The notes under the pieces: generated by a model | Seen by the model: the letters and a program-made list of their open reading frames with translations, nothing else | Told to the model about the DNA's origin: nothing | The model's database searches: none | Part shown: positions 3,374-62,804 of the stretch, piece by piece | How positions within the stretch are numbered: the first letter of the stretch is position 1 | How the letters are laid out: each line of letters opens with the position of its first letter | Assembly: GCF_032460525.1 (NCBI RefSeq) | Contig: NZ_CP135963.1 | Location: forward strand, 620,001-684,000 | DNA from: Geodermatophilus sp. DSM 44513 | GTDB taxonomy: Bacteria > Actinomycetota > Actinomycetes > Mycobacteriales > Geodermatophilaceae | Direction of reading: 5' to 3' | DNA length: 64,000 nucleotides | Made by a program: the position numbers and the translations under genes

Positions 3374-3446
3374 GACGTGCTGGAACGGCCACCCTCCAGG
3401 GTCCCGCGCCGAGCTGGCGAGGCGTGGGGGAGAGGGTGGTCCTTCC
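3374..3446 (-). repeat. Stop-abutting palindromic repeat, copy 1
   Basis: On the minus strand it begins directly after the ppa stop codon (TGA-GGAAGGACC) and ends GGAACGT...-type, i.e. CCGTTCCAGCACGTC. An outer stem (ACCCTC with GAGGGT, extendable with few mismatches to about 14 pairs) encloses an inner stem (CCCGCGCC with GGCGTGGG) and a loop containing GAGCTGGCGA. No U-run follows. It sits between convergent genes and may act as a terminator. Member of a seven-copy family in this window. Confidence 0.8.
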
Positions 3447-3941
3447 TCAGTGGTGGGGTCCGGCCTCCTCGGCCCGCGCCAGCGAGGCGTGGATCTCGGC
3501 CTCGGCCTCCTCGCGGCCGACCCACTCCGCCCCCTCGACCGACTTGCCCGGCTCCAGGTCCTTGTAGGTCTCGAAGAAGTGCTGGATCTCCAGCCGGTCG
3601 AACTCCGACACGTCGGTGATGTCGACCAGGTGGGCCATGCGGGGGTCCGTCGCCGGGACGCAGAGGACCTTGTCGTCCCCCCCGGCCTCGTCGGTCATCC
3701 GGAACATCCCGATCGCACGGCAGGTGATCAGGCACCCGGGGAAGGTCGGCTCCTCGAGGAGGACGAGGGCGTCCAGCGGGTCGCTGTCCATGCCGAGGGT
3801 GTTCTCGATGTACCCGTAGTCGGCCGGGTAGCGGGTGGAGGTGAAGAGCATCCGGTCCAAGCGGATGCGTCCGGTGGCGTGGTCCAGCTCGTACTTGTTC
3901 CGCTGGCCCTTCGGGATCTCGATCGTCACGTCGAACTGCAC
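3447..3941 (-). CDS. ppa: Inorganic pyrophosphatase
   Basis: 164 residues, the usual size of a family I soluble pyrophosphatase (about 160-175). It hydrolyses pyrophosphate to phosphate, pulling biosynthetic reactions forward in the cytoplasm. Visible signatures: [12 protein letters not shown] at 7-18, the DYGYIENT block at 41-48, and the metal-binding DSDPLD at 52-57 followed by [14 protein letters not shown] at 3941 fits the family N-terminus ([12 protein letters not shown]); the frame stays open far upstream only because of GC bias. It is divergent from dacB, with 54 bases between the start codons that must hold both promoters. The same ppa/dacB arrangement is known from mycobacteria. Confidence 0.97.
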
Positions 3942-3995: not shown

Positions 3996-5414
3996 GTGGG
4001 CACCATCGCGTCCAGCGGGTCGGCGACCGTCACGCCCAGGTACTCCCGGCTCCGCCGACGCCTCCTGCTCGCCGTCCTGGCGCTGCTGCTCGTGGTGGCC
4101 GCCGGCGCCTGGTACGTGCTCGCCCCGGACGGCGCGGAGTCGGCCAGCGAGGTCGCCGCGGCCGAGGCCCGGCTGCCCGACGTGGCGCCGGCCGGGCCGG
4201 TGCTCGCGGCCCTGTCGGCGCAGGCACCCGCACCCGACGCCGCCGTCCTCGCCGGTGAGCTCGGGCCGCTGCTGGCCGACCGGGCCCTCGGCGCCGGCGT
4301 CGAGGCCCGGGTCGTCGACGTCGTCTCCGGGGAGGTCCTGTTCGACCAGGGCTCGCAGACCCCCTCCACGCCGGCGTCCACCACCAAGCTGCTCACCGCG
4401 TTCGCCGCGCTGACCGCCCTCGGCCCCGACACCACCCTGGCGACCACCGTCGTCACCGGGGCCGCACCCGGCGAGGTGGTGCTCGTCGGCGGCGGCGACC
4501 CCACCCTGTCGCGCACCGCGCCCTCGCTGACCTACCCCGGCGCCCCGACCGTCGCCGATCTCGCCGCCCAGGTGCGCGCCGCCCTCCCCGCCGGCACGGA
4601 GGTCAGCCGCGTCGTCGTCGACGGCTCGCTGTTCGAGGGCCCGCTCACCGCCACCGGCTGGGGGCCCGGCGACGCGCCGTCCACCTACGCCGCCCCGGTC
4701 ACCGCCGCCGCCGTCGACGGTGCGCGGGTGCGTCCCGGCGAGGCGCCCCGCAGCGGCCGGCCCGGCACCGACGCCGGCACCGCGCTGGCCGTCGCCCTCG
4801 GCGTCCCGGACGCCACCGTGGCGCTGGGCGAGGCGCCGCCGGGTGCGCAGACCCTGGGCACGGTGCGCTCGGCGCCGGTCTCCCGCCTGGTCGAGCAGGC
4901 GCTGTCCCAGTCGGACAACCTGCTGACGGAGTCGCTGGCCCGCCACGTGGCGCTGGCCCGCGACCTGCCGGCCACCTTCGACGGCGCCGGCGCGGCGGTC
5001 ACCGGTGTCCTGGCCGGCGCGGGTCTCGACGTCACCGGTGTGACCCTGTCCGACGCCAGCGGGCTGTCCGCCGGTGACCGGGTGCCGGTCGCGGTGCTCA
5101 CCGGACTGCTCGCCGGCGCCGCCGACGGCACGCTGCCCGGGGCCTCCGCGCTGCTCTCCGGACTGCCCGTCGCCGGCTACGACGGCACCCTGTTCGACCG
5201 CGGGGACGAGGACCCGGCCACCGCGCCGGGCGCCGTCCGGGCCAAGACCGGCACGCTGCTCGGCGTGCACGGCCTGGCCGGCACCGTGGTCACCGCCGAC
5301 GGCCGCTTGCTCGCCTTCGCCGTGGTGGCCGACTCTGCGCCCGCCGACCGCACGGCTGCGGAGGCCGCCCTGGACGACGTCGCCGCGGCGCTGGCCGCCT
5401 GCGGCTGCCGCTGA
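3996..5414 (+). CDS. dacB: D-alanyl-D-alanine carboxypeptidase/endopeptidase (PBP4 type, S13)
   Basis: 472 residues. An N-terminal membrane anchor or signal (basic RLRRR, then a hydrophobic stretch at about 24-44) exports it to the cell wall side, where S13 enzymes trim or cleave peptidoglycan cross-links. The three penicillin-binding motifs are present in order: S128-T-T-K131, S306-D-N308 and K417-T-G419. The GTG at 3996 is the only start that keeps the anchor without a long shadow extension. Downstream a composite repeat begins at the stop codon. Synteny matches mycobacterial Rv3627c. Confidence 0.93.
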
Positions 5415-5522
5415 AGAAGGAACCTCCTGCCCCCCACCGTGGAAGGACCCCGTCCTCCTCACCACTCGCGAGCTCGCGCCGAGCCTCTGGACGGGGCCAG
5501 CGGCGGGCCCCTGCAGGAGGGC
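5415..5522 (+). repeat. Stop-abutting palindromic repeat, copy 2, with another copy nested in its loop
   Basis: Starts at the dacB stop codon (TGA-AGAAGGAACC). Outer arms CCTCCTGCCCCCCACCG (from 5423) and CGGCGGGCCCCTGCAGGAGG (to 5520) match the arms of the disA-linked copy at 32259-32321. Where that copy has a loop of about a dozen bases, this one has about 61 bases (5440-5500) that form a second unit: GGAAGGACCCCGTCC, then ACTCGCGAGCTCGCGC, then GGACGGGGCC, with its own CCCCGTCC/GGACGGGG stem. Confidence 0.8.
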
Positions 5523-26750: not shown

Positions 26751-27104
26751 ATGGCACGCAAGGTGCAGGTCATCCTCAGTGACGACCTCGACGAGAACGT
26801 GCCCGCGGACGAGACGGTGAGTTTCTCGCTCGACGGCACCAGCTACGAGATCGACCTCTCGGAGAAGAACGCGCAGGAACTGCGGGACACGTTCTCCCGT
26901 TACGTGCAGGCCGCCCGCAAGGTCGGTCGCGGCGGCGGCCGGGCCTCCGGTGGCGGTCGCTCCCGGGCCACCGGCGGCGGCGGGCGCATGGACCGTGAGC
27001 AGGCCGGCGCCATCCGTGACTGGGCGCGCAAGAACGGCCACGCGGTCAGCGACCGCGGACGCATCCCGAGCAGCGTCGTCGAGGCCTACGAGGCCGCCCA
27101 CTAG
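26751..27104 (+). CDS. lsr2: Nucleoid-associated protein Lsr2
   Basis: 117 residues. Actinobacterial H-NS-like silencer that bridges A+T-rich and foreign DNA. The N-terminal dimerisation domain begins [15 protein letters not shown], and the C-terminal DNA-binding domain ends [26 protein letters not shown], in which the RGR AT-hook-like loop inserts in the minor groove. The linker (about 62-80) is Gly/Arg-rich. The upstream 148 bases are visibly less G+C-rich than their surroundings, with TATGGT at 26664-26669 as a possible -10. Followed at once by repeat copy 3. Confidence 0.96.
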
Positions 27105-31565: not shown

Positions 31566-32258
31566 GTGCTGCACCCGGTCGGCCCCCTGCCCACGGCGGT
31601 CTACTGGCGGCGGCGGCTGCTGGTCCTGCTGCTGGTCGTGGCGGTCCTGGGCGGCGGGGGGTGGCTGCTCGTGGCCGCCCTCGGCGGTGCTCCCGGGCGG
31701 ACGTCGACGGCCACGGCCGCGGCGACCTCCGCGGCCGCGGCCACCGAGCCGCCCGCTCTGGAGCGGGTGCTGCCCCCGGTGACCGGCGTCCGGACGCCCA
31801 CCCCGGCGCCCGAGCCACCCGCCGAGCCGGAGCCGTCCGCCGAGCCGCCCGCGGCGACCCAGGCCCCCGGGGGCCCCTGCGGGGACGACGCGGTCGAGCT
31901 CGTGGTGCGCAGCCCGGGCAGCGCACCGGCCGGCAGCAAGCCGACGTTCGAGCTGGTGGTCACCAACGTCTCGCCGGTGCCGTGCGTGCGGGTCCTCGAC
32001 GAGCGCCTGCAGGAGGTGCTGCTGCTGGACGAAGCCGGCAACCGGGTGTGGGGCAGCAACGACTGCTTCCCCGGGGACGGCACCCAGACCCGCACCCTGG
32101 CGCCGGGGGAGTCGGTGACCGCCTCCCTGGTGTGGGGCGGGCTGACCAGCGAGCCGTCCTGCACCGCCCCGCGGACGACGCCGGCGCCGGGGGAGTACGT
32201 GCTGCGCGGCCGGCTGGACACCGAGGTCAGCCCCGACGTGCCCTTCACCGTCTCCTGA
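31566..32258 (+). CDS. Membrane-anchored extracytoplasmic protein (Rv3587c position)
   Basis: 230 residues. One transmembrane helix (about 17-40, RRRLLVLLLVVAVLGGGGWLLV), an Ala/Pro/Glu-rich stalk to about 98, then a globular domain of about 130 residues with four cysteines (GPCGDDAVELVV, VPCVRVLDE, NDCFPGDG, PSCTAPRT) that probably form two disulfides outside the membrane. The domain has an immunoglobulin-like beta pattern (FELVVTNVSPVPC, RTLAPGESVTASLVW, GEYVLRGRLDTE) reminiscent of BsuPI/DUF4232-type folds. Function unknown. The position between mutY and disA matches Rv3587c. Confidence 0.75.
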   Translation: MLHPVGPLPTAVYWRRRLLVLLLVVAVLGGGGWLLVAALGGAPGRTSTATAAATSAAAATEPPALERVLPPVTGVRTPTPAPEPPAEPEPSAEPPAATQAPGGPCGDDAVELVVRSPGSAPAGSKPTFELVVTNVSPVPCVRVLDERLQEVLLLDEAGNRVWGSNDCFPGDGTQTRTLAPGESVTASLVWGGLTSEPSCTAPRTTPAPGEYVLRGRLDTEVSPDVPFTVS

Positions 32259-32321
32259 GCCGGCCCTCCTGCAGGGTCCCGCCGCGAGCTTGCGAGCGGT
32301 GGGGGGCAGGAGGGTCCTCCT
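32259..32321 (-). repeat. Stop-abutting palindromic repeat, copy 4
   Basis: On the minus strand it starts at the disA stop (TAG-AGGAGGACCCTCC) and reads TGCCCCCCACCG, CTCGCAAGCTCG, CGGCGGGACCCTGCAGG. Stem CCTCCTGC/GCAGGAGG with an inner CACCG/CGGCG-type stem. It fills the whole gap between two convergent genes, so it can end both transcripts. Confidence 0.8.
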
Positions 32322-33407
32322 CTAGCTGTAGCGGTCGAGGATCGAGGTCTCGGCCAGCCGGGAGAGGCCCTCGCGGATGCCGCGGGCCCGGGCCTCCCCG
32401 ACGCCCTCGACGGCCAGCAGGTCCTCGATGGTGGCGGCGAGCAGCTTCTGCAGGCCGCCGAAGTGGTCGACCAGGCGGTCGATGATGCTCGCGGGCAGCC
32501 GCGGGACGCGGGCCAGCAGGCGGTAGCCCCGCGGGCTGACCGGGGAGTCCAGCGCGTCGGCGGACGTCGGCAGCCCGTAGCAGCGGGCCACCGCGGACAG
32601 GTCGAGCAGCTCGGTGGCCGACAGCGCGCGCAGGTCGGCGAGGACCTCCTCGATGCCCCGCGGCCGGCGCAGCCCCGAGGGCAGGTAGTCGCGCACGAGC
32701 AGCGCGCGGTCCTCCTCGACGCCGGCGAGCATCTCGTCCAGCTGCAGCGCGAGCAGCCGCCCGTCGGTGCCCAGCTCGACGACGAAGCCCTCAATCTCGT
32801 CGGCGATCCGGCGGACCATCTCCAGCCGCTGGCTCACGCTCATGGCGTCGCGGACGGTGACGAGGTCCTCGATCTCCAGCGCCGACAGCGTGCTGGCCAC
32901 CTCGTCCAGGCGCAGCTTGTACCGCTCGAGGGCGGCCAGGGCCTGGTTGGCGCGGGCCAGGATGGTGGTCGGGTGCTCCAGCGTGTAGCGCCGTCCGGCG
33001 ACGTAGACGCTGATGATGAGCATCGACTGGCTGACCGAGATCACCGGGAAGCCGCTCTGGATGGCGACCCGCTCGGCGGTGCGGTGCCGGGTGCCGGACT
33101 CCTCGGTGGGCACGGTGGGGTCGGGCATCAGGTGCACGCCGGCCCGCACGATGCGGGTGCCGTCGTAGGAGACGATCACCGCGCCGTCCATCTTGGCCAG
33201 CTCCCGCAGCCGGGTGGCCGACAGCGCGACGTCGAGGGCGAAGCCACCGGTGCAGATGGACTCGACCACCCGGTCGTACCCCAGCACGATCAACGCGCCG
33301 GTGCGCCCGGCCAGGATGCGCTCCAGACCGTCCCGCAGCGCCGTGCCCGGTGCGATGCGGCCGAGCAGTTCGCGGAGCGCGACCTCGGAGTCCACAGCGG
33401 GGGGCAC
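32322..33407 (-). CDS. disA: DNA integrity scanning diadenylate cyclase
   Basis: 361 residues. Makes c-di-AMP from two ATP, linking DNA status to signalling. N-terminal DAC domain (about 10-145) carries the DGA motif in [14 protein letters not shown] and the RHR motif in [12 protein letters not shown]; a helical linker follows, then a C-terminal helix-hairpin-helix DNA-binding region ([19 protein letters not shown]). Octameric in the family. GTG at 33407 has AGGAGC upstream, and TAGACT at 33441-33446 (minus strand) is a candidate -10. Directly downstream of radA in gene order, as in mycobacteria. Confidence 0.97.
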
Positions 33408-34984: not shown

Positions 34985-35746
34985 TCAGTCGCCGTCCCCG
35001 CCGCCGGCCTCGGCCTCGCGCTCGCGGGCGACGTCCTCGGCGCCGTCGGTGCCGCTCTCCTCGCCCTCCTCGTGGTGGAAGTCGAAGGGCTCCTCGCGCG
35101 GGACCACCCGGGTGGGCGTGCCGACCAGCGCCTGCACGGTGATCTCACCGGCGCGCTCGAAGGTCAGGGTGGCCTCGATGCTCTGGCCGGCGGTCAGCTC
35201 CTCGGTCAGGCCGACCAGCTGGACCGTCGCCCCGCTGTCGCCCCCGAGGAAGACCGTGGACTGCGCAGGGAGGGGGATGTCGACGGTGGAGCTCGCCGTC
35301 GGCGTGGCCGGGGCGCTCGACGACGGGAGCGCACCGGGGGACGGCGTCGCCGCGGGGTCCGTGGGCGCCGGTTCCGGCGCGCTGGGGGAGGCGGCCACCG
35401 GCTCGGCCGACGGCGAGCCCGGGACGGCGGGGACCGGCGTGGCCTGTCCGGACACCAGGACGCCCTCGAACGCCTCGCCCTCGATGGACACGAGCCGGTC
35501 GGGCTCGTTGTCGGTGTTGACGACCGCCATCTCCAGCTCGGCGTCCTCGCCCTCCTCGTACAGGCCGTCCGGGGGGTAGGCGAGGGTGATCGCGCGCAGC
35601 TCGACGTCGCCGACCGCGGCCTGCGGGCCGACCTTGTCCCGGTTCTGGGTGGCCGTCTGGGCGACCTGACCGGCGCTGCAGGCGGTGAGCGCGATCGGGC
35701 TGAGCAGCAGGGCGCCCATCGTGGCGGCGCGCAGTGCGCGGTTCAC
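34985..35746 (-). CDS. lpqE: Lipoprotein, LpqE-like
   Basis: 253 residues. Signal peptide with lipobox ALTAC (Cys about 23) at 1-23, so anchored on the outer face of the membrane. The mature protein begins SAGQVAQTATQ, then beta-rich sequence (VELRAITLAYPPDGLYEEGEDAELEMAVVN split around 45-80) like the copper-chaperone-type fold of LpqE, interrupted by a 50-residue Pro/Ser/Ala insert (about 105-160), and an acidic tail. GTG at 35746 was chosen over ATG at 35779 because GGAGG lies 8 bases upstream of it. Position next to radA and near carD matches Rv3584. Function unknown. Confidence 0.8.
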   Translation of the reverse strand: MNRALRAATMGALLLSPIALTACSAGQVAQTATQNRDKVGPQAAVGDVELRAITLAYPPDGLYEEGEDAELEMAVVNTDNEPDRLVSIEGEAFEGVLVSGQATPVPAVPGSPSAEPVAASPSAPEPAPTDPAATPSPGALPSSSAPATPTASSTVDIPLPAQSTVFLGGDSGATVQLVGLTEELTAGQSIEATLTFERAGEITVQALVGTPTRVVPREEPFDFHHEEGEESGTDGAEDVAREREAEAGGGDGD

Positions 35747-38103: not shown

Positions 38104-38994
38104 ATGACCACACCAGCCGACGCCACCGCCGACGAGCGGGCCCTCGCGGCCTGCCTCGCCGGCCGCCCCGTGCCCGGCGCCGCCGGCCTGGCCGCGTTCA
38201 CCGACGCGGTCCGGGCGAGCGCGACGGCGCCCGGGCGGCCGAACGCGGCGCTGGCCGAGCTGCTGGTGACCGGTCTGCTCGTCCCCACCCAGGAACCGTC
38301 CGCACGGACGGCCGGGCGACCCGCCCGGAGCTCACGGAAGAGGCCCCGCATGCTGATCTCCACCCTCGTCGCCAAGTTCGCCGCCGCCGGCGCCGTCGCC
38401 AAGGCGGCCGCCGGCACCGGCGCGGTCGTCGTGGCGCTGACCGGTACGGCGACCACCGTCGCCCTGACCACCCCGGAGGAGCCGGCCCCCGTCGTGCAGA
38501 CCACGACCGGGGACGCCACCACCACGGACGAGCCCGCGACCGACGAGCCGACCCCGGCCGGGGACGGGACCGAGCCCGAGCCCGAGCAGGACGACGCCGA
38601 GCAGGACGGCGCCGAGCCCGTCCAGGAGCCGGCTGCCGAGCCGCTGCCGGCGGGGACGGGGACGGCCCCCGAGGCGGGCGGGGCCCCGCAGGTCACCGAG
38701 GAGCAGTGGGCGGAGGGGCCGGCCGAGGGCCAGTCCCACGGCAGCTGGGTCAGCGAGGGCGCCCGGCAGGGCTGGGTCGACGGCGGCACCGTCAGCCGCG
38801 AGGCCCACGAGCGCAATGAGGCCCGGAAGGCCGGGCGCGTCGCCGTGCCTGCGCCGGTCGCCGACGAGCCGGTCGCCGAGCAGCCGGTCGCCGAGGAGCC
38901 GGTCGCCGAGCAGCCGGCGGCCGAGGAGCCGGCGGCGGTCGAGCCGGCCGGGCAGCCGGGCAACGGCAACGGCAACGGCCGGAACGGGAGGTGA
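38104..38994 (+). CDS. Single-pass membrane protein linked to the ECF sigma factor
   Basis: 296 residues. A short N-terminal cytoplasmic domain (about 1-75, ADERALAACLAGRPVPGAAG ... ALAELLVTGLLVP), a basic stretch (RKRPR), an Ala/Val-rich hydrophobic segment (about 86-120), then an acidic Thr/Pro/Glu-rich extracytoplasmic region with PVAEQPVAEEPVAEQP repeats. No zinc anti-sigma motif (HxxxCxxC) is present, so a role as anti-sigma factor is inferred only from the adjacency and topology. A similar arrangement of ECF gene plus short Ala-rich membrane protein is common in high-GC actinobacteria. Confidence 0.7.
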   Translation: MTTPADATADERALAACLAGRPVPGAAGLAAFTDAVRASATAPGRPNAALAELLVTGLLVPTQEPSARTAGRPARSSRKRPRMLISTLVAKFAAAGAVAKAAAGTGAVVVALTGTATTVALTTPEEPAPVVQTTTGDATTTDEPATDEPTPAGDGTEPEPEQDDAEQDGAEPVQEPAAEPLPAGTGTAPEAGGAPQVTEEQWAEGPAEGQSHGSWVSEGARQGWVDGGTVSREAHERNEARKAGRVAVPAPVADEPVAEQPVAEEPVAEQPAAEEPAAVEPAGQPGNGNGNGRNGR

Positions 38995-39042: not shown

Positions 39043-39894
39043 TCAGGTGACCGCCGCCCCACCGGCCAGGAGCAACGCCACGTCGAGGACGGTCAGCAGC
39101 ATCACGGCGGGGAATGCCGCCCGGCGGAAGCGCACGGTCCCCGCCACGGCAGCGACGGCGACGGCCGGCACGGCCAGCGCGAGCACCGCCCAGCCGGTGG
39201 CCGACGGCCTCCCGGCGGGACCGGCGACCAGGAGCAGGGACGCCGCGCCGAGCAGCGCCGCGCAGCCGACGGCCGAGCCGCCGGCGCCGAGCCGGTGCGG
39301 CAGCCCGCGGACGCCGGTGGCCAGGTCGTCCTCCAGGTCCGGGGCGGCGTTGGCCAGGTGCGCCGCGGCGCCGAGCGCGGCCCCGGCCGCGACCAGCCAC
39401 CACGGCGCGGCCGGCGTCCCCGGCGCCGCGGCGACCACCCCGGCCGGCAGCGCGCCGAAGCCGGTCGCGTAGGGCAGCACCGAGACCGCCGTGCGCTTGA
39501 GCCCCGCGTTGTAGGCCCAGCCGCTGGCGACGAGGACGAGCAGCAGCAGGCCCGGGACGGCCCCGAGCAGCAGGGACAGGACGACGGCCGCGGCGGCGGA
39601 CGCGGTGGCCAGCGTGCGCAGCAGGGCGGGGGTGACCGCGCCCTGCGCGACCGGCTTGTCGCCGCGGGCCACCGCGCGGTCGCGGTCGGCGTCCAGCCAG
39701 TCGTTGCTCCAGCCGATGGACACCTGACCGGCGATGACGGCCAGCGCGAGCAGCACCACCCGGCCCGGCGGCAGGCCCGCGGTCAGCGCCAGCAGGGTGG
39801 CCGTGGTGGTGACCGCGACGGTCGGCCCGGCGTGCGTGGCCACCACCAGCGCGCGCAACGGGGGCGCCGTCCGTCGGCCCGGGGCGTGCACCAC
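39043..39894 (-). CDS. UbiA family prenyltransferase
   Basis: 283 residues, about eight to nine transmembrane helices. The first Asp-rich motif is NDWLDADRD (about 64-72), with DKPVAQGAVTP just after it; the second is degenerate around LANAAPDLEDDLATGVRGLPHRLG (about 180-203). Such enzymes transfer a polyprenyl chain to an aromatic acceptor in menaquinone, heme or related pathways; the precise acceptor is not evident and this subgroup (SCO6045-like) is uncharacterised. GTG at 39894 lies 6 bases after TAGGTT (39906-39901, minus), a leaderless arrangement. Confidence 0.85.
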   Translation of the reverse strand: MVHAPGRRTAPPLRALVVATHAGPTVAVTTTATLLALTAGLPPGRVVLLALAVIAGQVSIGWSNDWLDADRDRAVARGDKPVAQGAVTPALLRTLATASAAAAVVLSLLLGAVPGLLLLVLVASGWAYNAGLKRTAVSVLPYATGFGALPAGVVAAAPGTPAAPWWLVAAGAALGAAAHLANAAPDLEDDLATGVRGLPHRLGAGGSAVGCAALLGAASLLLVAGPAGRPSATGWAVLALAVPAVAVAAVAGTVRFRRAAFPAVMLLTVLDVALLLAGGAAVT

Positions 39895-49626: not shown

Positions 49627-50535
49627 TCACCCGAGGGCGACGATCTCCTCCCGTGGCTCGGTCCCGGTCCGCCGGTGCACCGGGGGCACGAAGGCCATCG
49701 GTGAGGTGCAGTGCCGCAGCAGCCAGCGGTGCAGACCGTCCAGCGGCCGGTGCAGCAGACCGCCGTGCCCGGCGGTCATCACCAGCAGCGGCGTCGGGCA
49801 CGCGGCGGCCAGCACCCGGCCACCGGTCGGGGAGGGCACCGGCGCGTGCGTCACCTGCAGGCCGGGCCAGCGCTCGGCCCACCGCGGGGAGTCCGCGGCC
49901 CAGGCGCCTCCGTCGTCGGGCCGGGCGTGCAGCACGAGCAGGGGGGTGCGGCTGCGCAGCGCGGCGTCGGCGGCGAACACGGCCACCGGCTCGTCGTCCT
50001 CCCGCTCGCCGAGGCCGAGCACCGCCACGTCCGGGCGGGAGCCGGTGCCGCCGGGCCGCGACCGGGGGACGACGACCACCGGGCGGGGGGAGCGGGCCGC
50101 GACCCGCTGGGCGACCGAGGCGAGCACCAGCTCGTCGGCCGCGCCGGTCGTGGTGATCCCCAGCACCACGAGCTGCGCCTCCTCGGCGGCGCGCAGCAGC
50201 GCGGCCACCGGGTCACCGGGCACCACCTCGGTGGAGACCGGGACCGACGGGGCGGTGTGGACGGCGGCCGTGTACGCCTGGGCCGTGGCGCCGCGGGCGC
50301 GCGGCAGCCCGGCGGCGGGGGAGCCGGCGACGCCGCGGTGCCCGAGGTGGGGCGTGGCGTGCACGACCCGCAGCGGGGCACCGCGGCGGGCGGCGTCCTC
50401 GGCCGCCCACCGGACGGCGCGCAGCCCGCACTCGCTGCCGTCGGCGCCGACCACGACCGGCGCCGCGGGCGGGCCGTCGCCGGGCGGGCGCGGCACGGGG
50501 GTCGTCCCGACTGGGGTGGGGGTCGTCGTGGACAC
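49627..50535 (-). CDS. Universal stress protein with tandem Usp domains
   Basis: 302 residues. First UspA domain at about 28-165 (PVVVGADGSECGLRAVRWAAEDA and the C-terminal nucleotide loop GAADELVLASVAQRVAARS with PVVVVP); the second (about 175-300) is more degenerate and lacks a full G-x2-G-x9-S/T motif. ATP-binding stress proteins of this kind are linked to dormancy and hypoxia in actinobacteria. GTG at 50535 was preferred because GGAGG lies 5 bases upstream; the frame is open further up only as shadow. Confidence 0.85.
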   Translation of the reverse strand: MSTTTPTPVGTTPVPRPPGDGPPAAPVVVGADGSECGLRAVRWAAEDAARRGAPLRVVHATPHLGHRGVAGSPAAGLPRARGATAQAYTAAVHTAPSVPVSTEVVPGDPVAALLRAAEEAQLVVLGITTTGAADELVLASVAQRVAARSPRPVVVVPRSRPGGTGSRPDVAVLGLGEREDDEPVAVFAADAALRSRTPLLVLHARPDDGGAWAADSPRWAERWPGLQVTHAPVPSPTGGRVLAAACPTPLLVMTAGHGGLLHRPLDGLHRWLLRHCTSPMAFVPPVHRRTGTEPREEIVALG

Positions 50536-55490: not shown

Positions 55491-55563
55491 GCCGGCGTGG
55501 CGCAACTGGTAGCGCACCCGACTTGTAATCGGGCGGTTGGGGGTTCGAGTCCCCCCGTCGGCT
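55491..55563 (+). tRNA. tRNA-Thr (anticodon TGT)
   Basis: Folds as a complete cloverleaf: acceptor GCCGGCG/CGTCGGC (one G-T), D stem GCGC/GCGC with an AACTGGTA loop, anticodon stem CCCGA/TCGGG with loop CTTGTAA (anticodon TGT, reading ACA), variable loop CGGTT, T stem GGGGG/CCCCC with loop TTCGAGT, discriminator T. No encoded CCA. Its 3' half is repeated at 59411-59453, marking it as the integration site of the following island. Confidence 0.95.
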
Positions 55564-56341: not shown

Positions 56342-57829
56342 ATGCGCAACGCTGTTCCATGCCGTTCCTCGTCGGCACGCGCCGGTACTCTGCTCCGGCG
56401 TGTGGGGCTGCTTCGTCAGTTGGTCGTATCATTGGCCGCGCTCGCGGTCGTCCTAATTGGCGTGATCCTCGCACCTATCGCACAGGGGACGACGGGATTT
56501 ATCGGTAGCTATTGTCACGACCGCGGCTATGCTTGCGTAACTGGCGGATACGCAGCGACGGCTGCAAGCACCGGCAACAGTTGGGCCTGGCGGTACTACG
56601 GCGAGCAGGGCGCTGGCGGCATCGGAACGCCTTCCGGGCCGCACAACTGCACCCTCTACGTTGCCTGGCGCCTTCAGCAAGCGGGAATGGTCGACCCTAA
56701 GCGCGCGTGGGGGAATGCCTCCGAGTGGGGCAACGTATTTTCCTCTGACCGTCGACCAGCCGTTGGCTCGGTGGCTTGGTGGAAAAGCGGGAATCACGTC
56801 GCCTACGTCGAGCAAGTGAGCGCTGACGGAGCCCAAGTGTATGTGCGTGCGGACAATTATGTCCCTAGCGGCGCGGGCGGATACACCGACGCAGGGTGGA
56901 TATCAGTCAACGCGCCCACCGGCTTTCTGCACATCCACGACGTAGGCGCTGGCGCCCCCGGTGGAAGTGTTACCACTCCGACCGCCGGCATTGCGTTTGA
57001 GGCCAACACTAGCCACCTGTGGACGGCGGGGGGCGCTGGCACTGCTGATCGAGGCCTGGGCATGATGCCCGGCACCAGCCCGGCCATCGCGGCCGTGTCC
57101 GGCGGGTACCAGGTCGCTTTTCAAGCGAATACTGGTAATTTGTGGACTACGGGCCCGCTCGGGACTCGAGACTTTGGCCTCGGCATGATGGCCGGGACGA
57201 GCCCGGCAATAGCTGCCGTGCCCGGCGGTTACCAAATCGCCTTCCAAGCTAACACTGGCAACCTCTGGGTTGCGGGGACCCAGGGAACAGGCGACTTCCA
57301 CCTTGGCATGATGCGGGGCACAAGCCCGGCGATCGCCTCCCATAACGGCGGGTATGGCATCGCCTTCCAAGCTAACACCGGCAACTTGTGGACGGCTGGC
57401 GCCGCCGGGACGGCCGACCGCGGATTAGGCATGATGGCTGGCACGAGCCCTGCTATCGCCGCAAACTCCGCTGGCTACGGCATCGCCTTTCAAGCCAACA
57501 CGGGCAACCTGTGGACGACCGGCGCCGGCGGGACCGCTGACCGTGGCCTGGGCATGATGCGCGGAACCAGCCCTAGTATCGCCGCGGGCGCCGGCGGTTT
57601 CGGCATTGCCTTTCAATCGAACACGGGGAATTTGTGGACGACTGGTGCGGCTGGGACTGCCGACTTGCAATTGGGCATGATGGCCCGTACCAGCCCGAGC
57701 ATAGCCGGAGGCTCCAGCTACTCGTTGGCCTTCCAAGCGAACACCGGAAGCCTTTGGACGGCAGGCGGTGTCGGAACTACCGACTTGCGGCTTGGCATGG
57801 CGGGGGGCACTAGCCCGGCTATTGCCTAG
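56342..57829 (+). CDS. Secreted CHAP-domain protein with seven propeller-like repeats
   Basis: 495 residues. N-terminal signal or anchor (basic LLRRVGLLRQ then LVVSLAALAVVLIGVILAP, about 27-47). CHAP domain at about 75-200 with candidate catalytic Cys103 in GPHNCTLYVAWRL and His152 in GNHVAYVEQV, as in peptidoglycan amidases/endopeptidases. From about residue 215 seven units of about 41 residues follow (xxAFQANTGNLWT, GTADRGLGMM, GTSPAIA), probably a seven-bladed beta-propeller that binds sugar or cell wall. Lower G+C and A/T-ending codons show it is foreign cargo of the island. RBS GAGAGG 9 bases before ATG. Biochemical role is inferred from the domains only. Confidence 0.85.
   Translation: MRNAVPCRSSSARAGTLLRRVGLLRQLVVSLAALAVVLIGVILAPIAQGTTGFIGSYCHDRGYACVTGGYAATAASTGNSWAWRYYGEQGAGGIGTPSGPHNCTLYVAWRLQQAGMVDPKRAWGNASEWGNVFSSDRRPAVGSVAWWKSGNHVAYVEQVSADGAQVYVRADNYVPSGAGGYTDAGWISVNAPTGFLHIHDVGAGAPGGSVTTPTAGIAFEANTSHLWTAGGAGTADRGLGMMPGTSPAIAAVSGGYQVAFQANTGNLWTTGPLGTRDFGLGMMAGTSPAIAAVPGGYQIAFQANTGNLWVAGTQGTGDFHLGMMRGTSPAIASHNGGYGIAFQANTGNLWTAGAAGTADRGLGMMAGTSPAIAANSAGYGIAFQANTGNLWTTGAGGTADRGLGMMRGTSPSIAAGAGGFGIAFQSNTGNLWTTGAAGTADLQLGMMARTSPSIAGGSSYSLAFQANTGSLWTAGGVGTTDLRLGMAGGTSPAIA
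56984..57829 (+). repeat. Seven in-frame repeats of about 123 bases
   Basis: Encode the seven AFQANTGNLWT-type blades of the CHAP protein. Units are 35-41 codons long and diverged at the DNA level (synonymous differences throughout), so the duplication is old and selection is on protein. Confidence 0.85.
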
Positions 57830-61730: not shown

Positions 61731-62651
61731 GTGGACGAGCGGCGCACCGGGATCCTGTGCGGCCTGGGCGCCTACGGCCTGTGGGGCCTGTTCCCCCTGT
61801 ACTTCCCGCTGCTGGAGCCGGCCGGCGGGCTGGAGATCGTGGCCCACCGGGTCGTGTGGTCGCTGTTGTTCATCGCCGTCCTGCTCACCGTCCTGCGTGC
61901 CTGGCCGCAGGTGCGCGCCACGGTCGCCGACCGCCGCTCCGCGCTGGTCCTGCTCGGCGCCGCCGTGCTCATCGCGGCCAACTGGCTGGTCTTCGTGTAC
62001 GGGGTCAACTCCGGGCACGTGGTGGAGACCTCGCTCGGCTACTTCATCAACCCCCTGGTGAGCGTGCTGCTCGGGGTGGTGGTCTTCGCCGAGCGGCTGC
62101 GCCGGCTGCAGTGGGTGGCCGTCGGGATCGCCGCCGTCGCGGTGGCCGTGCTGACCGTCGACTACGGCCGGCCGCCGTGGATCGCCCTGTCGCTGGCGGC
62201 GACCTTCGGCCTGTACGGGCTGATGAAGAAGCTGGTCCGGGTCGAGGCGGCTCCGGGTCTGTTCGTGGAGACCGCGCTGGTCGTCGTCCCCGCGGTGGTG
62301 GTGCTGGCCGTGCTGCACGCCGGCGGCGAGGGGACGGCGGGCACCGCCGGGACCGGCCACCTGCTGCTGCTGGCGAGCGCCGGTGTGGCGACCGCTGTGC
62401 CCCTGCTGCTGTTCGCCGGCGCCACCCGGCGCGTCCCGCTGTCCACGGTGGGGCTGCTGCAGTACCTCACCCCGCTCATGCAGCTGGCGATCGGGGTCTT
62501 CGTCAACCAGGAGCCCATGCCGCCGGCCCGGCTGGCCGGGTTCGTCATCGTGTGGGTCGCCCTGGCCGTGTTCACCGTCGACGGCCTGCGGACCGCCCGG
62601 GACGGCGCCCGTCGGCGGGCGGCGGAGACCGCGCCCGCACCGGCCCGTTGA
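61731..62651 (+). CDS. rarD: EamA family transporter RarD
   Basis: 306 residues, ten hydrophobic helices in the EamA pattern. RarD signature near the N-terminus (GLGAYGLWGLFPLYFPLLEP, EIVAHRVVWSLLFI), NWLVFVYGVNSGHVVETSLG, YFINPLVSVLLGVVVF, and VGLLQYLTPLMQLAIGVFV. Drug/metabolite transporter superfamily; named for chloramphenicol resistance but substrate unknown. GTG at 61731. The TGA stop is part of repeat copy 7. Confidence 0.93.
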   Translation: MDERRTGILCGLGAYGLWGLFPLYFPLLEPAGGLEIVAHRVVWSLLFIAVLLTVLRAWPQVRATVADRRSALVLLGAAVLIAANWLVFVYGVNSGHVVETSLGYFINPLVSVLLGVVVFAERLRRLQWVAVGIAAVAVAVLTVDYGRPPWIALSLAATFGLYGLMKKLVRVEAAPGLFVETALVVVPAVVVLAVLHAGGEGTAGTAGTGHLLLLASAGVATAVPLLLFAGATRRVPLSTVGLLQYLTPLMQLAIGVFVNQEPMPPARLAGFVIVWVALAVFTVDGLRTARDGARRRAAETAPAPAR

Positions 62652-62748
62652 AGGACCCCCTCGCCCCCCGCCACTCGCAGGCTCGCGCCAGGCCCCGTCC
62701 AGAGGCTCGCTGCGAGCGTGCGAGCGGTGAGGGGGACGGGGTCATCAT
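62650..62748 (+). repeat. Stop-abutting palindromic repeat, copy 7 (composite)
   Basis: Starts within the rarD stop (TGAAGGACCCCCTCGCC) and has the usual first half (CCGCCACTCGCAGGCTCGC), but then continues into what looks like a second unit in the opposite orientation (GGCCCCGTCC ... GCGAGCGTGCGAGCGG ... GGACGGGGTC). CCCCGTCC/GGACGGGG forms the second stem. Confidence 0.75.
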
Positions 62749-62804
62749 GCCCACGAGGGGGCCGCACGGCGGCCGGGTGGCCCGGGGATGTCGGTGGGCG
62801 GGTC

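Follow-up and report, generated by a model that had tools for sequence, protein, structure and literature searches.

The window, meaning the whole stretch of 64,000 nucleotides that was analysed, shows seven sites at which a hairpin repeat is located at the stop codon of a gene: ppa, dacB, lsr2, disA, an lpqE-like PCuAC gene, usp and a rarD-like gene. The gene labels of the original prediction, or their families, agree with Pfam (pyrophosphatase, S13 D-Ala carboxypeptidase, Lsr2, DisA, PCuAC chaperone, Usp and EamA, respectively), and re-reading confirms the seven sites, all of which belong to the same kind. The elements, and a separate inverted repeat behind one of them, are the following:

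3374..3446, minus strand: ppa element, full, with tail; stop TGA at 3447-3449, foot AGGAC 3 nt past the TGA; model match 95.3 bits
5415..5522, plus strand: dacB outer element, without tail; stop at 5412-5414, variant foot AGGAAC at 3 nt (from sequence and fold)
about 5441..5498, plus strand: dacB inner element, in the loop of the outer one and in the same orientation; model match 5444-5509, 36.4 bits
27106..27178, plus strand: lsr2 element, full, with tail; stop TAG at 27102-27104, foot 4 nt past the stop; model match 84.3 bits
27182..27214, plus strand: GC-rich inverted repeat distinct from the lsr2 element and behind it, found in relatives too (orthologues read by eye), probably the ordinary 3' hairpin of lsr2
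32259..32321, minus strand: disA element, without tail; disA stop TAG at 32322-32324, foot at 3 nt; model match 32250-32321, 79.2 bits
34912..34984, minus strand: element of the lpqE-like PCuAC gene, full, with tail; stop at 34985-34987, foot at 3 nt; model match 93.1 bits
49575..49629, minus strand: usp element, short, with tail; the GA at its 5' end is that of the stop TGA at 49627-49629, foot at 0 nt; model match 64.7 bits
62650..62764, plus strand: outer element of the rarD-like gene, overlapping the stop at 62649-62651, foot at 0 nt (read from the sequence)
62693..62741, minus strand: rarD inner element, nested in opposite orientation to the outer one; model match on the minus strand, 44.7 bits

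The predicted start at the stop codon holds for the outer elements, with offsets of 0, 3 or 4 nt, while the predicted AGGAC foot is AGGAAC in dacB. The sites are not all single copies as had been proposed: dacB contains two elements, and rarD is nested too, with a right arm beyond the end first assigned (arms at 62653-62663 and 62754-62763, pairing read by eye). A common polarity with respect to the upstream gene is likewise found in the outer elements but not in the inner rarD unit, which is on the other strand. The tail CCGTTCCAGCACGTC, expected at several copies, is carried by four of the seven (ppa, lsr2, lpqE and usp). The disA element fills the whole gap between disA and the convergent gene ending at 32258. 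AGGACC occurs 79 times in the window and in six cases follows a called stop by 0-7 nt (by 3 nt in three, 0 nt in two and 4 nt in one). Two other repeats are present in the window: a 123-nt periodic repeat of five copies at 56986-57705, in a gene-poor stretch behind the tRNA gene 55491-55563, and five imperfect 15-nt tandem repeats at 38838-38942, inside a reading frame (Pro-Val-Ala-Glu-like units).

The alignment of 17 copies shows, from 5' to 3', the stop codon, a spacer that is usually a single free nucleotide, GR-AGGACC, an arm of variable sequence, a run of C and an inner stem, which in the consensus holds the loop TCGCNNGCTC and then GGGNCCCTG; the 3' side shows the complementary arm and GGCC-GTTCC, followed in some copies only by the tail AGCACGTC. 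The fold has 22 pairs in two helices (14 + 8) around internal loops and an apical loop of 12 nt. Two-sided pair changes number 46 against 15.3 in shuffles for 17 hand-picked copies, and 179 against 49.4 for 70 model-fitted copies, a fit which leans towards the model. Independently of any model, the complement of a copy's own arm is present in 52 of 58 copies of the window's genome and 28 of 30 copies of other genera, against 22% and 30%, respectively, when arms are swapped between copies. Folding of single sequences is weak, with z from -1.2 to -2.3 for five window copies and -6.3 for the rarD copy, and for the lsr2 copy shuffled versions fold at least as well (z +0.96). The seven copies of the window are one hairpin repeat family with covarying arms. 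The Rfam scan of the window gives a tRNA as sole match above the gathering score and none for the element. Tandem 3'-half units, from loop to tail and with a period of 44-46 nt, are located behind some elements (L015-L017, G000:C1:1393389-1393493; L027/L028, 3362492-3362552). A subfamily whose arms are CCCCGTCC…GGACGGGG and GAGCCTC (window 5441-5498 and L085:6039 are examples) abuts a stop in two of 10 copies of the window's genome and 12 of 19 copies of relatives, the main subtype doing so in 29 of 41 and 24 of 33, respectively (word pattern).

The genome of the window has 4.63 Mb. A sample of 864 kb, composed of the window and 40 evenly spread 20-kb stretches of this genome, contains 63 copies at E<=0.01 in the model search (seven of 70 matches, with E>0.01, were left out; in two further match sets, four of 50 were left out for E>0.01 and all 42 were used, respectively), which extrapolates to about 340 copies per genome; at least 153 matches were found in the genome by the model search. 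The tail word occurs there 73 times with at most one mismatch and 36 times exactly (reversed control, 11), and a pattern match finds the tail stretch in 17 of the 63 sampled copies. The element is detected in 66 of 76 genomes and in nine of 12 genera of the family, by inference Geodermatophilaceae, and in none of 16 genomes from other families of the same order, in agreement with the predicted lineage specificity. The family name follows from DisA, whose closest hits are in Blastococcus, Geodermatophilus and Modestobacter. G057, a species of a carrier genus, shows no model matches, with none at E<=0.01 in 320 kb (one at 0.059), and its pattern count equals the control count (two and two). Carriage by phages or plasmids was rejected: the exact element pattern occurs 0 times in viral_contigs, and blastn of one element copy against plasmids gives no match.

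The spacing between element and stop codon is fixed to the nucleotide. With gene ends taken from our own codon-score caller and not from annotation, AGGACC, the 5' foot of the hairpin, is found at exactly +3 nt of the stop 34 times in the 864-kb sample against 0.42 expected, and the maximum among 89 permuted words at +3 is two; the distance to the stop is non-random in this sample. In 852 3' flanks from 21 species (stops with at least 40 nt of 3' flank), AGGACC is at +3 in 78 cases, at +4 in 11, at +1 in eight and at 0 in six, most of the other offsets having 0-4 cases each, and the antisense word GGTCCT shows no offset peak. When every 6-mer was counted, with no word chosen beforehand, in 410 flanks from the window's genome, AGGACC at +3 came first (33 occurrences), and the same scan shows no comparable stop-locked 6-mer in G057, G025 and G036; in the last two, which belong to other families, none reached four in 96 and 69 flanks only. 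By copies, the foot is located from -3 to +8 nt of a same-strand stop in 41 of 63 in the window's genome and 52 of 88 in relatives, being exactly at +3 in 26 and 31 of all copies, and 22 and 36 copies, respectively, are away from any called stop. Two other genera (G050, G064 and G076; 30 loci of 107 pattern matches) show the foot exactly at +3 in 17 of 30 copies and from -1 to +4 in 26, and G080, from another genus, has one copy at +3 in 90 flanks of a small 160-kb sample. Pairing in the hairpin usually begins at the second nucleotide past the stop. TGA stops have the foot at +3 in 75 of 91 cases and TAG stops in only three of 20, the other 17 showing -2, +1, +4 or +7, so the register tracks the G of the stop codon. 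Insertion of a single A, converting TGA into TAGA, may account for the TAG offsets; lsr2 of the window's genome and of G013 looks like such a pair.

The gene directly upstream of the 63 sampled copies is on the same strand in 49 and on the opposite strand in nine, and five copies are inside called genes. Between co-directional genes, 23 copies are in the sense of the gene and five antisense (864-kb sample), which agrees with the orientation first proposed. A replication-strand bias was rejected as cause, since 22 copies are on the leading and 19 on the lagging strand, the genes numbering 495 and 309 (origin assumed near base 1). The orientation of the element follows the gene and not the fork.

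Element-free relatives use the same stop codon for lsr2, disA, ppa, usp and the gene at 39043-39846; the stop therefore preceded the element at these five genes, and the suggestion that some copies supply the stop codon does not stand for them. Occupancy varies: among 21 species, 13 have an element at the lsr2 stop and 11 at the disA stop, as expected of a repeat that spreads or turns over. The six arm letters are identical in 10% of pairs of orthologous copies and in 3% of the remaining pairs. Six of the seven nested copies inspected share the orientation of the outer one, and the rarD one is reversed. Short GC-rich gaps are found at some sites that relatives have filled. A MITE would have terminal inverted repeats and a target-site duplication; the ends of the element are imperfect, and no duplication was recognised between species 83-99% identical in proteins, a range of identity that leaves the insertion borders blurred. 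A RAYT/Y1 transposase was rejected as mover because Y1_Tnp (PF01797) is found in none of 76 genomes (control genomes positive in five of 14), and a reverse transcriptase because PF00078, found in 37 of 76, is patchy, with none in carriers such as G014 and G008. The window's genome has two PF00078 domains (G000:C1:1563798-1564451 and 4018667-4019200).

We favour a non-autonomous, REP-like palindromic repeat that is copied around the genome and arrives in sense directly behind existing stops, a reading that we hold to be evenly balanced between right and wrong. The register would be set by targeting on arrival of the copy and not by later selection; we infer targeting from a spacing that stays fixed to one nucleotide despite strong turnover of the occupied stops, and from the fact that a species may do without the element. 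The mechanism is assumed to be strand-specific, with a single strand, and to act where translation ends, and the element, once transcribed, would act, if at all, as a 3' UTR hairpin near the terminating ribosome. Against this reading stand the 22 and 36 copies away from called stops, the different offsets at TAG, the non-stop TGA and TAG sites that have the element, the patchy reverse transcriptases and the single +3 copy in the G080 sample.

A somewhat unlikely alternative is that copies land anywhere in 3' UTRs and that those right at the stop are kept, since a hairpin there helps. The benefit could concern the transcript 3' end, Rho access, ribosome release or a damping of translation as proposed for E. 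coli REPs. The 3' location, the sense orientation and the arms kept complementary agree with selection, which also has a precedent in E. coli in the available part of PMC12306157, where proximity of a REP to a stop (within 15 nt) defines a recognised class; by analogy with these, an effect of the element on the terminating ribosome is possible. A terminator, as proposed in the original prediction, is not borne out, since the tail GTTCCAGCAC that follows the hairpin contains no U-run, a T-run terminator scan of window positions 26-36 kb gives two sites, neither at an element, and ppa and lsr2 show a second inverted repeat downstream of the element, common to element-free relatives (by eye). From the sequence, a role in termination appears unproven and without evident need. 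The distance from the stop to the start of ordinary 3' hairpins has a median of 17 nt, 10 of 104 falling at 0-4 nt, and such hairpins occur equally often with the element (three of 13 flanks) and without it (53 of 198), although cases are few; both results speak against selection. So does the turnover of occupied stops, and G057, in which no copy reaches E<=0.01 in 320 kb and no other 6-mer is stop-locked in its place, indicates that the function would be dispensable. A precision of one nucleotide is also hard to motivate for a hairpin covered by the terminating ribosome.

If the register is instead set on arrival, what is recognised could be DNA or translation. In the pooled set, which includes orthologous loci, the element is at +3 of 64 of 768 real CTGA stops and of none of 1044 non-stop intergenic CTGA (198 in same-strand 3' flanks and 846 elsewhere), and a DNA motif alone is therefore insufficient for placement; in the window's genome alone the counts are 26 of 394 and none of 581 (p 4e-11). 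Non-stop TGA with AGGACC at +3 is found at six sites, all in relatives, among 3303 non-stop TGA of both sets. A plain stop-triplet target was rejected, as 419 3' flanks contain 440 extra same-strand stop triplets, and yet none of the 47 non-stop copies with a recognised foot has a stop triplet at the +3 register and none of the 1044 CTGA is occupied. A preference for ACTGA was also discarded: the pooled 18 of 68 is inflated by orthologous lsr2 sites, and the window's genome alone gives six of 32. Four elements of two species (L091:9669, L085:17050, L155:1334 and L167:5106) are in the same non-stop context, …CGTGCCC or AGGTGCCC after a GGACCGCACC- or CGACACCG-like stretch, as if in a larger repeat or behind an unannotated RNA. 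In three relatives, at an orthologous place in a promoter-like region, a reversed element abuts a non-stop TAG (L159:4337, L164:15066 and L160:15430).

Arrival coupled to translation termination, in which a factor at terminating ribosomes, or a strand exposed behind them, would set the insertion point in sense at the first nucleotide after a genuine stop and with no DNA motif, is an unlikely form of the favoured reading. One point against any placement by codon counting is that TAG offsets differ from those of TGA, which a purely codon-counting mechanism would not give. We know of no other bacterial repeat that chooses its integration site through translation termination, which, if true here, would be new.

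Quite unlikely is a target in the DNA itself, for example (C)TGA/TAGR, 3' of which an unrecognised transposase would insert the element strand-specifically, in the manner of IS200/IS605 or REPs, with loss of the insertions made elsewhere. The C before the stop is enriched at elements (29 of 33 against 280 of 413, p 0.011, window's genome), the register tracks the G of TGA or TAG, and copies abutting TAG are also found at non-stop sites. Single-strand transposition is expected to give polarity to one strand and insertion into hairpin loops, and both are seen. This target is opposed by the empty CTGA of flanks and other intergenic DNA, where loss should not exceed that at the stop, and by the 47 non-stop copies without a stop triplet. 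Very improbable is growth in place without jumping, in which short hairpins behind stops would be enlarged and homogenised by template switching or conversion between copies: the tandem 3'-half units, the internally matched arms and the short GC-rich gaps at sites filled in relatives fit it, but unrelated genes gain near-identical copies in the same 5' register and intact copies are found inside the loops of others.

A register fixed to the nucleotide, seen in several genera with no RAYT, separates two questions that are usually mixed, how repeats arrive and whether the hairpin acts on the terminating ribosome, and both are testable. A lock set at insertion would imply a mobilising route not yet known, and one set by selection a 3' UTR function that depends on exact position, in hundreds of genes. 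Species that carry about 340 copies can be set against a congener-level one with essentially none.

Among known systems, the MIRU of mycobacteria, reportedly described by Supply et al. in 1997, follow the direction of transcription and abut both stop and start codons, and are reportedly tandem repeats with a small reading frame between translationally coupled genes; the element differs in being a hairpin at operon ends and in convergent gaps. Factor-independent terminators lacking a U-run, with a GC-rich hairpin soon after the stop, have been proposed for actinobacteria. The element shares such a hairpin soon behind the stop and differs in being a repeated sequence family with exact register and conserved arms, the median for ordinary hairpins here being 17 nt. 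A description of this repeat was not found in the open-licence literature searched and may exist elsewhere; as judged from sequence, it appears to be a REP-like family, new as far as that literature goes, with a nucleotide-exact register to real stops. REP-like repeats near stops are already known, and what is added here is a register fixed to the nucleotide and independent of a DNA motif at non-stop sites, in several genera and with no RAYT.

In the available parts of PMC3733652, REPs lie for the most part on the 3' side of genes, with many no more than 20 bp from the stop, and the ends of GTAG-REPs often provide a TAG stop. The original claim that ordinary REP elements lack this relation to genes is thus only partly right, since REPs are also stop-proximal in what is available of PMC3733652 and PMC12306157; the nucleotide-locked spacing has no parallel in those parts. 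The element resembles the CGTC-REPs (Di Nocera et al. 2013, PMC3733652) as far as these are described there: both are intergenic palindromes, mostly 3' of genes near stops, with no dedicated transposase. CGTC-REPs have an unpaired CGTC at one end; the 36 exact tails of the window's genome end in CACGTC, and thus in a terminal CGTC, but the tail stretch is in 17 of the 63 sampled copies. The same portion of that paper gives CGTC-REPs a stem of 8-9 bp, a loop of 4-5 nt and a 3-nt tail at the other end, mostly as head-to-head dimers, in five named phyla from which Actinobacteria are absent, whereas the element has 14 + 8 pairs and a 12-nt loop, is mostly a single unit or nested in the same orientation (no formal count), is often without tail and has the exact stop register. 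With the GTAG-REP/RAYT repeats, including the REP/BIME of E. coli, it shares hairpins, hundreds of copies and a 3' UTR location, some of those repeats being within 15-20 nt of stops and some giving the stop (accessible portions of PMC3733652 and PMC12306157). It differs from them, as portrayed there, by a 17-copy consensus without GTAG, no Y1 transposase in 76 genomes, a polarity tied to the gene and the +3 spacing.
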